Shown in pieces: positions 27,289 to 32,899 of a stretch of 39,692 bases of DNA. The notes beneath the pieces were generated by a model. It had not been told where the DNA came from. It worked only from the letters and a program-made list of their open reading frames with translations, and made no database searches. Source of the stretch: Spirochaetales bacterium (GTDB lineage: Bacteria > Spirochaetota > Spirochaetia > SZUA-6 > JAFGRV01). A program made the position numbers and the translations under genes. The stretch is from assembly GCA_016930085.1 (NCBI GenBank), contig JAFGHO010000114.1, forward strand, positions 1-39,692. Reading direction: 5' to 3'. The stretch's first letter is position 1. Every line of letters starts with the position of its first letter.

Positions 27289-28306
27289 CATCGATCCGGA
27301 ACGGATCGCCCAATACCCCAAAACAATACGCGGCACCTCGCGGCTGTTGCTTCTCGACCGGGAAAAAGGGACGTTGAAGGATGATGAGTTTTCCCGGATC
27401 GGCGACATCATCCGGCCGGGAAGCCTCATCGTCATCAATGATTCACGGGTAAGAAAGGCGCGGGTCTTCGGCAGCCGCGAAGAGACGGATAATCGATGTC
27501 CCGAAGGACCGTCAAAACCGGTCGAGTTTCTTTTTCTGGAAGAAATAAAACCGCGGTTCTGGAAGGTGCTCACGCAGAAGACGAAAAAAAGAAAACCGGG
27601 CGACACGTACCGTTTTTCCGAAGAGGTCACCGGGACCATACGGAAACATGAAAACGGGTACTGCATTCTCGAACTCTCAACCCGGGTGGGAGAAGGTTTT
27701 TTCGAGCGGCACGGACACGTGCCCCTTCCCCCGTACATACGGCGGAGCGATGCCGCCTCCGATTCGGACAGGTACCAGACCGTGTATTCACGCACGACCG
27801 GCTCCGCCGCAGCGCCGACGGCGGGGCTCCACTTTACCGGCGCGATCATGCGGCGGCTCGAAGAAAACGGCTGCCTGATACGCCGCATCACCCTCCACGT
27901 GGGAATCGGAACCTTCATCCCGATACGGACGGAAACGGTGGAGGAACACCGGATGCACGAAGAGGTCTTCGATATTCCCGAAGAAACGGCTCAGACGATC
28001 GAAGCGTACATGAACGGGGGGAAACAAATAATCGCGGTCGGGACCACTGTCGTCCGCGCCCTCGAATCGGCCTGCGACAATGGCCGCATACGGACCGGCA
28101 GACAAAAAACATCCCTCTTTATTTATCCGGGCTACACGTTCAAGGCGGTCAACGGACTCATCACCAACTTCCATACCCCGGGTTCGACCCTGCTCGTCAT
28201 GGTTTCCGCGTTCGCCGGGAAAGCGAACATCGACCGGGCGTACCGCCACGCGATCGAAGCGGGCTACCGCTTTTTTTCCTACGGCGACGCGATGATGATC
28301 GTTTGA
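27263..28306 (+). CDS. queA: S-adenosylmethionine:tRNA ribosyltransferase-isomerase QueA
   Basis: QueA transfers and isomerises the ribose of S-adenosylmethionine onto preQ1 in tRNA, making epoxyqueuosine at wobble position 34. The 347-residue protein begins as family members do (MKTSDFFFDIDPERIAQYP). It carries LIVINDSRVRKAR, VPLPPYIRR, TAGLHFT, LHVGIGTF and LITNFHTPGSTLLVMVSAFAG in order. The start at 27263 lies 26 bases inside ruvB, consistent with translational coupling; the conserved first residues support it over later Mets. It is the last gene of the run; no clear terminator follows. Confidence 0.97.
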   Translation: MKTSDFFFDIDPERIAQYPKTIRGTSRLLLLDREKGTLKDDEFSRIGDIIRPGSLIVINDSRVRKARVFGSREETDNRCPEGPSKPVEFLFLEEIKPRFWKVLTQKTKKRKPGDTYRFSEEVTGTIRKHENGYCILELSTRVGEGFFERHGHVPLPPYIRRSDAASDSDRYQTVYSRTTGSAAAPTAGLHFTGAIMRRLEENGCLIRRITLHVGIGTFIPIRTETVEEHRMHEEVFDIPEETAQTIEAYMNGGKQIIAVGTTVVRALESACDNGRIRTGRQKTSLFIYPGYTFKAVNGLITNFHTPGSTLLVMVSAFAGKANIDRAYRHAIEAGYRFFSYGDAMMIV

Positions 28307-28324
28307 ATGGGGGCCGGAAGAGTA

Positions 28325-28543
28325 ACTACGGATTGCGCGGGAGGGAGCGGATTACGCGGCGGGGTGAGGGGCGCGGCGAAGGGTAACAAGCTGGTTTAAT
28401 GATTATAGTTATAATTTTAATAATAAATAAATTAAAATTTTAATTGACTATTTTGATAAGCGGTGGTGTGTAGTGGTTGAGGGGTATGTGCCGAGTTGTG
28501 GATTAATCCGTGTAATCCGCTTTTTTTCCGCGAAATCCGTAGT
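28325..28543 (+). mobile_element. MITE-like element, copy 1 (219 bp, ~35-bp terminal inverted repeats)
   Basis: The left end, ACTACGGATTGCGCGG and on to 28359, is matched in inverse by the right end 28508-28543 (ending CGCGAAATCCGTAGT). The interior is AT-rich and holds no gene. The same design and nearly the same length recur at 29513-29730. No transposase is present, so it would be non-autonomous. No clear target-site duplication is seen. The sequence similarity extends a few bases left (GAAGAG). Confidence 0.72.
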
Positions 28544-28672
28544 AACATATTTTTGGTTGATTTTTTGATACAGAGTCTGTTTGGCACGGTGTTTTGTGTA
28601 TATTATTGTATTCGATATAGAAGGTGAAATGTTACGGTTGGTTTGGACGGGGTGTAGTTTTTTTATGATTAG

Positions 28673-29215
28673 TTAAAGCTGAAGCACCCAAAATGGTGAA
28701 TAACGATTCGTATATAGAGAAATAAATCTGTTTCGCCATGGTAGATGCTGGATTATTTGAAACAATTGTCGTAAATTCCTTCGAGGGGACTGCTGTAATC
28801 TCTTATTCTCAATACGCCATTGTTTAAAGATTTTTTTGAATTCCTCAATTACTCTATTTCCATATTTCTCGACCATCGCCAAAAACAACTCCAGCAGCCA
28901 CCGCACAAGCTGCGCTATGCTAAAAAAATTCAAATCAGCATGAAGCAGTTTTATCTTCCGGTACACATCCTCGGTAAAATACACGTGCGCGTGTACACGA
29001 TCTAAATCGGGAATGTCCGAGACCGCCCGATACCTGCTCATCCGTTGTTTTCCCCAAATGTGTTCCTTTATGATCAAAGGATCGATACAGGACAATATAT
29101 TAACAATGACTCCGGATAACGAGCGTCTTAAGCCGAATATTGTCAGGTTAAGCAGCTTCTCTTTCATTATTTCAGACATGATAAAATGAAATTCATGCAA
29201 AACCGATGCTATCAT
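28673..29215 (-). CDS. Small protein with ribbon-helix-helix-like segment, unknown function
   Basis: This protein has 180 residues. ATG 29215 has AGGAG 6 nt upstream, the best SD in this island. The middle (about 75-115) reads HAHVYFTEDVYRKIKLLHAD, then FSIAQLVRWLLELFLAM. This beta strand plus two helices resembles a ribbon-helix-helix DNA-binding unit (strand, then E-x-x-Y-x-K, then S-x-A-x-L-V). A basic tail follows (NKRLQQSPRRNLRQL). There is no transposase motif. The gene is boxed between the repeat copies and is markedly more AT-rich than queA upstream, which suggests acquisition with the island. A regulator or an antitoxin-like protein is possible; no toxin partner is visible. Confidence 0.65.
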   Translation of the reverse strand: MIASVLHEFHFIMSEIMKEKLLNLTIFGLRRSLSGVIVNILSCIDPLIIKEHIWGKQRMSRYRAVSDIPDLDRVHAHVYFTEDVYRKIKLLHADLNFFSIAQLVRWLLELFLAMVEKYGNRVIEEFKKIFKQWRIENKRLQQSPRRNLRQLFQIIQHLPWRNRFISLYTNRYSPFWVLQL

Positions 29216-29352
29216 ATGAGACTCCTTTTATAATTGTATTTATACAGTATATAACGCATAAAAAGTGTCAGCTGCTTTGATTTATTAAAAAATCTGTGTG
29301 TTTATTGAACGATGCCTTATCAATGACAGGCAAAAATTATTCAGAAGGAACG

Positions 29353-29471
29353 AAATTAATTTTAATTGACGTGACCGGTTCGATGAGTGGCCGCACTCGA
29401 GATTGGGAAGGAATCCTGCGCGCCGTGTGGTAATCCGTAAAATTCGTTTCTTTTCCGTGAAATCCATAGTA
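29353..29471 (+). mobile_element. MITE-like element, 5'-truncated copy
   Basis: It matches the right half of the full elements: an AT-rich TTTTAATTGAC segment, then the right terminal repeat 29435-29471 (TTTTCCGTGAAATCCATAGT). The left terminal repeat is missing. The sequence is more diverged than the two full copies, so it is probably an older insertion. It lies 41 bp left of copy 2. Confidence 0.6.
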
Positions 29472-29512
29472 AAATTTTTTTAGAGTGACGCGTTGTGAAA
29501 AATGAAGAGCAA

Positions 29513-29730
29513 CTACGGATTGCACGGAAAGGAGCGGATTGCGCGGCGAGGTGAGGGATGGGGCGAAAGACAAGGTTGTATGATTTCAGAGTATCGTTAA
29601 AGATTTATTAATAACTAAATTTCGATTTTAATCGACTGTTTCGATATCCGGCGGCATGCGACGTGGAGAAGGAATACCGTGCGTCGTGGATTAATCCGAG
29701 TAATCCGTTCTTTACCGCGCAATCCGTAGT
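29513..29730 (+). mobile_element. MITE-like element, copy 2 (218 bp)
   Basis: It is in the same orientation as copy 1, with left terminal repeat 29513-29547 (ACTACGGATTGCACGG and on) and right terminal repeat 29696-29730 (ending CGCGCAATCCGTAGT). Its length agrees with copy 1 to within one base while the interior has diverged. This argues for a defined element rather than a chance repeat. From 29731 to the promoter at 29797 only a short hairpin (29748-29776) is seen. Confidence 0.72.
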
Positions 29731-29796
29731 TAATCAATAAAGCGCCGATGCCGTATTTACTACGAAGAAACGGCATTTCCTGACTGAAAATAAAAT

Positions 29797-29825
29797 TTGA
29801 CATTTTTATCCCGATATGATACGAT
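29797..29825 (+). promoter_or_regulatory. Promoter of the exported giant-protein operon (TTGACA-17-TACGAT)
   Basis: A perfect TTGACA (29797-29802) is followed after 17 nt by TACGAT (29820-29825). The predicted leader is long, about 225 nt to TTG 30059. I see no named riboswitch in it. An open frame at 29905-30135 crosses into the real gene and is not supported. Confidence 0.65.
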
Positions 29826-30058
29826 AACAGTTCATCGAGAAATAAAGATACGTAAGAACAATAAAAACGGGAAACATAATAAACAATGACGGTTCCGTAT
29901 AGTCATGTCTATCGTTTCCGGCTTTCTGCCATGCTCATGTCATGAACAAAAGACCATGTGGGGGGTCTCTCGCACCGCGTTCGTTCCGGACTTCCGGGCG
30001 AGCGCACGGCGACCGTTTCAGGCGGCGGCGGGAGAAAGGGTTACAAAGGGGGAAAACA

Positions 30059-32899
30059 TTGAAGAAGACAATTACCGGTATACTCTGCTTAATAAGCGTA
30101 TTGGCTGGGGGGATTGCATGGGGGGATGTTTTTGATCCTAAAGACGGTCTTGAAGAAAAGAACGGGAACCGGTTTTTTTACCGCGTCAGAGGAAACAGCT
30201 ACAAGATGGAATATGTGATCAAAGGTATTGCGGTTCCATCGTCGCTCGAGCAGGGGGATTTTACGGCAACATATACGACGGTCGGCGGGGGAAGCCCCGA
30301 TGGAAGCTCGGACGCGATAATCGAAACAATTTCCGGGCCGGGGAAACATTTATCGTGCGATGAACCTTATAACGGCTGGGATCGTGGACTAATACAACCG
30401 CGATATATTAATGGAACGTATCCTTCATACAACATCTTCGATGCCGATCCACCTTGTATCTACCCCTTTACGATTCATGTTTATGTTCCTCCTGCGGGTC
30501 GGGTCGATGAAACGAAAAAGAATTTTGAATGGCTGACAACACCTCAAATGAGAATAAAGATTGCGAAAGGAAATCTTAAAGATCCCACTACAATTAAAAA
30601 TTATGATTACAATTCGTATAACGGCTTCGAATTCGATCTGAATCCTGGTGAATACGCCATGATACGGCCGCTCAGGGACGGGAGGTATGAATGGGAAGAT
30701 GTCTGTGTTCAGGAAATAGGAATGTTTGAATATGAATATCCATGTACCAGAAAAGAAGATGTTGTTCTCAGTGGTTGTAGTGTTTATTTCGCACTCGATA
30801 CCGTGGCTCCGGAGTTGAACGATGCGCCGGGGATCAAGGATGCGGTGTTCAATAACAACATCTATTATACAAACGAAAGCAGTCTGGATACGGAAGATGG
30901 TGTAACGATTGTCTGGCACGCAATCGAGGATGAGGGGACGTTTGTCTGCGAACAAGCGCAGGAAACGAGCAAAAGCGGTATGGCGAGTTACCGTATCTAT
31001 GAAGCGGAAGAAACAGGATCGGGAAACGAATACACCATGCTCGATACGATTGAGGTGATGGATGACGGCAATGGGGAACAGATTCCTTTTTATGAAAGGA
31101 CGCTCCGGTTCGATGAGGGAAGACATACGCTTTTAATGACCGCGTGCGACAAACGCGGGCTCGACAGCAGGTATGTATATGATGAAAACGGGAAGCTGGT
31201 CGTCGACGGGAATAATAATCCGACACAGAATAAATTTTCAGAACCGTGTATCGTCGTGGTGGACAGGACGCCGCCCGCGATGGTGACTGGTGTCAAACTC
31301 GAAGACGAAAAAACAGTGGAAACCGGAACGGGCACGGCGAGAACTTATGCGGTTTCACCGGCATTCACGCTGGAATGGGATGAAAGTGAGGATATGCCTG
31401 ATGAGGATAACGCGGGAACGGAGAACTATACCGTGCGGCTGCGAAATATAACAGATTCCCCGGCAGTTACTGAAACCACATATGATATTCCCGTTTCAGA
31501 AGGAGAACATGCAGCAATAGAAGCTGAAAACGGCGTGTACGAGGCAGCCGTCAGGGCCGTGGATGCCGCGGGAAACGAAGGCGCGTGGAGTGACACTTAC
31601 ACCTTCTCCATCGACAGCGAGGCGCCGGTGACACCGGCTCCGGCATCTTTTACGATGGAAAGCGATCCCTTCGCTATAAAGAGTGTCGAGGGTGAAACGG
31701 TGAGTTTTTCAACGACAAATGCCGATGCTGCGGTGAGTTTCACGGCCGTTTCCGATGGAACGGAGGCGTGGCAGAGCGGAATCGCTTCGTATACGATCGA
31801 AGACGTGCACGGGACACCGGTCCAAAACGCTGAATTTATTGAGACAGACGGACGGGTCACGATGACGTTTCCGGACGCGTTAAGCGGCACGAATGCCTTT
31901 ACGGTCTACGCGGCAGATAAAGCCGGAAACAGAAGCGGGGGCGTTACCCTTACCATCACGGTAACGGCATTGTCCAGTGTGACGTTTCCCGCGCCGTGTT
32001 ACGAATACGACGGGGAGAACGACGAGTATTCCCTGCTGTGGACGCCCCCGGATACGGTGCCCGAAGGGGCGGAAATCGCGTATTACAAGGCGCTTTTCAG
32101 GACGAGTGACGAGGATGGAAATATGGATTCCCCGAAAGATGAAGCGTTTGCCCCGATTCCGGAAATGACGGAGACAAGGCTTCTGCTCGACGGGATTGAG
32201 CGGGGGGTGGGGATGGTCGTCTATATTCTTGTCGCGGATACGTACGGAAATAAGACTCCCGGCAAGGCATCATTCACCCTCCCGCCGATGGTCATCGACA
32301 CGGTCGAGGATTATGTCCTTAACGATGACGAATACTGGTGGAGCGGGGTCCACGAGATGCACGCAAACGTGATCGTACCCGAGGGCTTCACGCTTACGAT
32401 CCTTCCGGGGACGATCGTGATAACATTCGGGAACGTGAAACTCCAAATCGAAGGCAGTCTCGTGATACTGGGTGAGCCGGACCAGGAAGTGACCTTCGAG
32501 GCGGCCTCACCTTCTTCAACCGCTTGGCAGGGGATTTACCTGGGCGCAGAAGGCACCGGCGTTATCCGTCATGCCGTGATACAGCACGCCCTGCGCGGGA
32601 TGACCGTCGTGACCGGGGCCGGGGCAACCGTCTTTTCAACGGTTTTTTTTCATAACCGTGTTGGGCTTCATTCTTACGGGGCGGCGCCGTCGCTGGACGA
32701 TTGCCGGTTCGAGGAATGCCAGTGGTACGGGGTGAAGGAGGATGCCGTCCGGGAGAACGGGGGCATGAGGCCCGCACTCAACGGGTGCGGGTTCAAAAAC
32801 AACGGGTGCGACTACTATCACGAAGACAACCGGGACATAACGATGGAAGAACTGAACGACATACCCGGAAACGGGAACAACGGGAGGGTGGAAGAATGA
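30059..32899 (+). CDS. Exported multi-domain protein: Ig/FN3-like repeats plus beta-helix
   Basis: This protein has 946 residues from TTG 30059, which has GGGGGA just upstream and begins a signal peptide (LKKTITGILCLISVLAGGIA). An ATG 117 bases earlier has no SD and adds an Arg-rich stretch, so it is rejected. A ~240-residue unknown N-terminal region is followed by Ig/FN3-like units starting near residues 248, 404, 522 and 638 (DRTPPAMVTGVKL, VDAAGNEGAWSDTYTFSID). From about residue 754 a right-handed beta-helix follows (VIVPEGFTLTILPGT, then GVIRHAVIQHALRGMTVV). It is probably surface-exposed or secreted, and likely a binding or structural protein. Its stop overlaps the RHS gene start (ATGA), so the pair is co-translated. 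Confidence 0.83.
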   Translation: MKKTITGILCLISVLAGGIAWGDVFDPKDGLEEKNGNRFFYRVRGNSYKMEYVIKGIAVPSSLEQGDFTATYTTVGGGSPDGSSDAIIETISGPGKHLSCDEPYNGWDRGLIQPRYINGTYPSYNIFDADPPCIYPFTIHVYVPPAGRVDETKKNFEWLTTPQMRIKIAKGNLKDPTTIKNYDYNSYNGFEFDLNPGEYAMIRPLRDGRYEWEDVCVQEIGMFEYEYPCTRKEDVVLSGCSVYFALDTVAPELNDAPGIKDAVFNNNIYYTNESSLDTEDGVTIVWHAIEDEGTFVCEQAQETSKSGMASYRIYEAEETGSGNEYTMLDTIEVMDDGNGEQIPFYERTLRFDEGRHTLLMTACDKRGLDSRYVYDENGKLVVDGNNNPTQNKFSEPCIVVVDRTPPAMVTGVKLEDEKTVETGTGTARTYAVSPAFTLEWDESEDMPDEDNAGTENYTVRLRNITDSPAVTETTYDIPVSEGEHAAIEAENGVYEAAVRAVDAAGNEGAWSDTYTFSIDSEAPVTPAPASFTMESDPFAIKSVEGETVSFSTTNADAAVSFTAVSDGTEAWQSGIASYTIEDVHGTPVQNAEFIETDGRVTMTFPDALSGTNAFTVYAADKAGNRSGGVTLTITVTALSSVTFPAPCYEYDGENDEYSLLWTPPDTVPEGAEIAYYKALFRTSDEDGNMDSPKDEAFAPIPEMTETRLLLDGIERGVGMVVYILVADTYGNKTPGKASFTLPPMVIDTVEDYVLNDDEYWWSGVHEMHANVIVPEGFTLTILPGTIVITFGNVKLQIEGSLVILGEPDQEVTFEAASPSSTAWQGIYLGAEGTGVIRHAVIQHALRGMTVVTGAGATVFSTVFFHNRVGLHSYGAAPSLDDCRFEECQWYGVKEDAVRENGGMRPALNGCGFKNNGCDYYHEDNRDITMEELNDIPGNGNNGRVEE

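Follow-up and report, generated by a model that had tools for sequence, protein, structure and literature searches.

Two repeat families in one spacer of a Spirochaetales genome: MITE-like elements linked to GxxExxY genes and a high-copy gene for a predicted tandem ribbon-helix-helix protein

The stretch analysed here, referred to as the window, comprises 39,692 nucleotides of contig JAFGHO010000114.1 from a Spirochaetales bacterium (GCA_016930085.1). In the intergenic spacer that separates queA from the gene after it, two independent repeat families are found together: short elements with terminal inverted repeats (TIRs), and a small gene, P0001, predicted to encode a tandem ribbon-helix-helix (RHH) protein within a cassette of its own. 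The features are as follows.

28322..28326, no strand assigned, GTAAC direct repeat at the left flank of TIR element copy 1, a putative target-site duplication (GTNAC pairs also at contigs C7, C30 and C32)
28325..28543, plus strand, TIR element copy 1, with core TACGG...CCGTA at 28327-28541
28542..28546, no strand assigned, GTAAC direct repeat at the right flank of copy 1, read from the sequence
28549..28672, minus strand, G-poor 3' trailer of the P0001 cassette, common to part of the other copies
28673..29215, minus strand, P0001, predicted 180-aa tandem RHH protein, one of about 30 intact genomic copies
29222..29227, minus strand, Shine-Dalgarno site AAGGAG, kept across the tandem-RHH family
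29248..29281, minus strand, conserved promoter-like motif ATCAAAGCAGCTGACACTTTTTATGCGTTATATA (30 genomic sites, none in the reversed control)
29358..29470, plus strand, third TIR element copy, right half, with the left half missing
29512..29730, plus strand, TIR element copy 2, with mismatched flanks GCAAC and GTTAA

The original prediction, made from the sequence of the window, had placed two copies of about 219 bp with TIRs of about 35 bp at 28325-28543 and 29512-29730, and a repeat comparison recovered both. The inverted arms are 36–40 nt long with 83–85% complementarity, and the left ends of the copies share 86% identity over 64 nt. Each end was correctly described as being built of two related units, which are ACTACGGATTNCNCGG followed by CGGATTNCNCGG, 19 bp apart. 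The 5'-truncated third copy proposed to lie between the other two is likewise present, reduced to its right half, and the small RHH-like gene proposed between copies 1 and 3 corresponds to the ORF at 28673-29215, with AAGGAG standing 6 nt upstream of its ATG. The window copies lack a long ORF, and share with miniature inverted-repeat elements (MITEs) both a short (under about 600 bp), non-coding body and terminal inverted repeats. An Rfam search of positions 28000-30300 gave no match.

The two-unit end pattern, with three mismatches allowed, was found at 17 sites in the 5.36-Mb assembly, spread over nine contigs, compared with none for the reversed control pattern, and the expectation of further genomic copies with the same ends is thus borne out. 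Complete elements of 218–235 bp are present on contigs C7, C30, C32 and C98 (the inner copy there) in addition to the two in the window, and the full-length copy on C30 is 81% identical to window copy 2; a DNA search of 60 relatives with the 219-bp element gave no match outside its own genome. The element edges read as GTNAC-TACGGATT...AATCCGTA-GTNAC. Alignment of these edges, proposed as a way of finding target-site duplications, gave a divided answer: matching 5-bp GTNAC flanks occur in four of the seven complete elements (GTAAC at window copy 1 and C7, GTGAC at C30, GTTAC at C32), and the flanks do not match at window copy 2, the inner C98 copy and the C88 element. Several copies also agree further out, in GAAGAGT... 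and ...ACCCCA, so part of the agreement may reflect common descent, and a 5-bp duplication is for this reason likely rather than proven. No empty site for the elements was found.

The TIR elements are MITE-like: short, non-coding and dispersed, with structured terminal inverted repeats. They resemble bacterial MITEs in these respects and in the 5-bp direct repeats that flank four of the seven complete copies, and differ from them in the internal two-unit structure of their ends and in lacking any identified parental transposase that shares these ends. No full-length, autonomous relative combining these ends with a recognised transposase, which the original prediction had suggested looking for, was found, and the larger elements with the same ends carry a DUF1016_N-SNase gene (C88) or a GxxExxY gene (C98), neither being a recognised transposase. 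The C88 element (L044:4023-5310 = G000:C88:44023-45310) spans 1,288 bp between the same two-unit ends, and its cargo is a 331-aa DUF1016_N + SNase protein that also matches the PADLOC candidate defence family PDC-S02. At the start of contig C113 the end of a related SNase gene adjoins another TIR right end.

In genomes, GxxExxY genes can be associated with flanking inverted repeats. Ten genes here match the family (TIGR04256 / PF13366 PDDEXK_3, PD-(D/E)XK superfamily), and TIR ends lie within about 220 bp of four of them, at distances of 13 bp (C32), 71 bp (C7), about 200 bp (C98) and 206 bp (C88), against about 0.02 expected by our own arithmetic if ends were placed at random. The other six have no recognisable TIR end nearby, and several of these are cut by contig ends. 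The association of the TIR elements with GxxExxY genes is observed at the level of the genome, where repeat ends flank such genes; the window copies themselves hold none. Among other Spirochaetota, an inverted repeat of at least 28 bits, scored between 400-bp flanks, surrounds 15 of 22 GxxExxY loci; among 120 mismatched flank pairs 6 reach this score, as does 1 of 23 control genes. Many of the repeats at GxxExxY loci consist of short units, AACCACTGAGGGCACGGAGAGCACTGAGG for example, strung into arrays. These arrays share a design with C98, in which repeated short units are placed in inverted orientation around the gene; the window copies differ in being 219 bp long with no gene inside, and their unit, CGGATTNCNCGG, differs from the units in other genomes. 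Literature full text in which GxxExxY or PF13366 appears with repeats gave passing mentions only, with no description of the association.

Two side observations concern the layout of such loci. On C98 (L046:5852-6867 = G000:C98:24851-25866) the GxxExxY gene has an outer left end on one side and a complete TIR element of 232 bp on the other, and this order of half-element, cargo and full element resembles that of the window, with a different cargo. At L164 (G129:C1 around 1483287) a GxxExxY gene is flanked by several hundred base pairs of inverted arrays of AACCGCAGATAAACACAGATGAACGCAGATT-type units.

Three alternative accounts of the TIR elements were weighed. The crowding of two complete copies and a half copy into 1.4 kb could suggest a local tandem duplication, the finding named in advance as fatal to a mobile-element reading; complete copies on C7, C30, C32 and C98 lie in different surroundings and the ends are dispersed over nine contigs, which rules this account out. 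The original prediction also had the MITE-like cluster built around the RHH-like gene, and named a transposase or the encoded protein as possible binders of the paired sub-sites in the repeats; with the encoded protein as binder, gene and repeats would form a single mobile unit. The position of the gene between copies 1 and 3 favours such a unit, as does the fact that DNA binding is a property of tandem RHH proteins. The elements of the cluster are real, and the evidence does not support the gene as part of them: of the other family copies fetched, not one has any of the 17 ends beside it, and gene and repeat thus do not recur together; ends are found where the gene is absent, and again beside GxxExxY genes, and upstream of the gene stands a conserved motif of its own, unlike the TIR. 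The proposed binding of the sub-repeats is accordingly unsupported, and we consider a single unit largely refuted and highly improbable. The third possibility, which we judge improbable to a lesser degree, is that the elements and GxxExxY genes are unconnected and simply accumulate in the same tolerant spacers. It would account for the presence of ends near only four of the ten genes, and for the element on C32, which abuts a GxxExxY gene missing its N-terminus and so may have inserted beside the gene; against it, most GxxExxY genes of other Spirochaetota are flanked by inverted arrays of comparable design, and on C98 the gene has a complete element on one side and an outer left end on the other. 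We favour a model in which the 219-bp copies would be non-autonomous, MITE-like members of a class of GxxExxY-associated inverted-repeat elements, presumably mobilised in trans since they lack coding capacity. The TIR ends tie into the inverted arrays around GxxExxY genes across Spirochaetota, and the link points to a class of mobile elements whose movement or maintenance may depend on a PD-(D/E)XK-like protein.

P0001 gave no match to Pfam, NCBIfam, PHROGs or PADLOC. Copies of the gene are homologous over the ORF, over about 100 bp before it and over up to about 160 bp after it; from one copy to another the neighbours are unrelated and the flanks are not shared. The upstream motif (e.g. ATCAAAGCAGCATGCACTTTTTATGCGTTATATA) occurs at 30 sites, 26 before family genes and four at contig ends, and at none in the reversed control. 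It includes a conserved GCAGCANNNNACTTT block, and a related block precedes the copies in genome G004 and those of both subfamilies in genome G002. A minority of cassettes have imperfect inverted ends of 12 bp (GANTCTGTCGG at about −102 and CCGGACAGACTC at about +107), with homology extending about 45 bp beyond the 3' one, and convincing terminal repeats were not found among the cassette copies compared.

The AlphaFold2 model of P0001, built from a 17-row alignment (mean pLDDT 69), predicts a β-α-α arrangement twice in one chain followed by a helical C-terminus, with elements E6-14, H15-22, H33-43, E73-81, H82-91 and H97-141, for which pLDDT is mostly 78–87. Foldseek matches to the model are weak (best E 0.21, none below 0.1), with chains of the F-plasmid relaxosome at the top ranks. 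A structural aligner gave Z 9.2 for the relaxosome chains (rmsd 3.5 over 108 residues), 6.4 for DndE and 5.2 for VirC2, in a list that may lack other tandem-RHH families. Since TraM is absent from one of the matching entries, we read these chains as TraY. On this medium-confidence model P0001 is predicted to be a single-chain tandem RHH protein of the TraY/DndE kind. TraY also binds its own promoter region. In both TraY and DndE the RHH is duplicated and followed by a C-terminal helical extension; both are able to act as monomers, and TraY binds DNA as a monomer (PMC10853773).

P0001 resembles F-plasmid TraY, a relaxosome accessory protein, in its two predicted β-α-α units and helix within one chain; it differs in lacking a sequence match and in about 50 extra C-terminal residues, and its family differs in being chromosomal, with about 30 copies and no relaxase or oriT seen. 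With DndE, a phosphorothioation protein with two RHH domains, it is predicted to share the duplicated RHH and C-terminal helical extension; it differs in having no match to the Pfam or NCBIfam DndE models and no dnd-type partner among the neighbours listed. Searches of Pfam, NCBIfam and PDB sequences found no similarity of P0001 to either protein. Strand residues R73, H75, H77 and Y79, and E8 and H10, alternate and are invariant in 30 of 30 copies, and most of the residues in between vary, as expected for a putative shared DNA-contact face. Subfamily 2 of G002 has T and H at positions 77 and 79, and its upstream motif differs too; this joint change is no more than suggestive.

The family has 43 matches in its own genome: 31 full-length copies including that of the window (30 of them stop-free), about eight decayed copies, and fragments at contig ends. 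Full-length copies are 56–78% identical to P0001 in amino acid sequence. At least nine contig ends lie in or beside cassettes (G000 C18, C34, C46, C49, C64, C68, C112, C117 and C122), which suggests that near-identical copies collapsed in assembly and that the real copy number is probably higher than counted. Close matches were found in only two of 98 relatives, the Spirochaetales MAGs Zod_Metabat.855 and Zod_Metabat.749, with at least 35 each, and a profile search of 393 Spirochaetota genomes added distant relatives in four more, with 4, at least 8, 6 and 1 matches; IMG/VR, PLSDB and phage records gave no match. All 30 copies of the genome form one clade (support 99), and copies from other genomes, represented in the tree by their best-scoring members, cluster by genome almost completely. 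The copies were amplified separately in each of three genomes. Leptospira DUF1564, a multi-copy RHH-like family, was considered and rejected, as near and distant members alike had no Pfam match to DUF1564 at E up to 1; a literature search on DUF1564 found no paper.

Resident copies are under purifying selection. The median dN/dS is 0.19 across 428 pairs and 0.27 among nearest pairs, thus about 0.2–0.3; decayed copies are under-represented in these values because the copies were picked as full-length. Intact copies make up 30 of about 39 not cut by contig ends, and a simple substitution simulation of neutrality since the nearest split leaves about 0.4 of 30 copies stop-free. Empty cassette sites were not found, the neighbours of six cassettes never standing side by side in four genomes of the same family.

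Taken together, we favour, at a probability of roughly 0.55, a reading in which two independent families occupy one spacer, namely the GxxExxY-linked MITE-like elements and a self-contained, autoregulated, spreading tandem-RHH cassette. The cassette would consist of the promoter-like motif, Shine-Dalgarno site, ORF and 3' trailer, and each would make a monomeric tandem RHH protein. This protein may bind the motif before its own gene and before sister copies, and the whole family would therefore be jointly autoregulated. The cassettes may multiply, by duplicative mobility, as short dispersed units in each lineage. A purely selfish element would not usually show purifying selection on its resident copies, and the strongest objection to a spreading cassette is that such selection would be seen with host-serving paralogues as well.

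Such paralogues would be non-mobile regulators of local transcription or chromosome-organising proteins, expanded by ordinary duplication. We regard this as a serious possibility, short of an even chance, given that all full-length copies, each at a dS of 0.2–0.5 to its nearest relative, show purifying selection and that G002 holds two coexisting subfamilies. It is harder to reconcile with copies scattered singly among unrelated neighbours with no shared flanks, with separate amplification in each of three genomes, with the presence of about eight decayed copies, and with several copies cut by contig ends, suggesting near-identical copies. Returning to the spreading cassette, we suggest only tentatively, and with some doubt, that it may represent an undescribed selfish or host-adopted class, in which the gene for a tandem RHH protein of the TraY kind has multiplied, together with its own operator, independently in several Spirochaetota lineages to at least 30 functional copies per genome with no recognisable transposase. 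The gene belongs to a high-copy family that was unplaced in the libraries searched and whose modelled fold is like that of TraY and DndE. In the family libraries searched there is no counterpart to one bacterial genome with about 30 intact, selected copies of a gene for a predicted DNA-binding protein, most of them sharing the promoter-like motif, and this raises the question of what spreads a transposase-free gene and why every copy is kept.

The cassettes also vary at both sides of the ORF. The 3' trailer ends at varying distances past the stop codon (e.g. at L077, L083, L091 and L098), and some copies (L078:1700-2000, and upstream at L134 and L141) contain 50–130 bp of extra, partly hairpin-forming sequence between the motif and the ATG.
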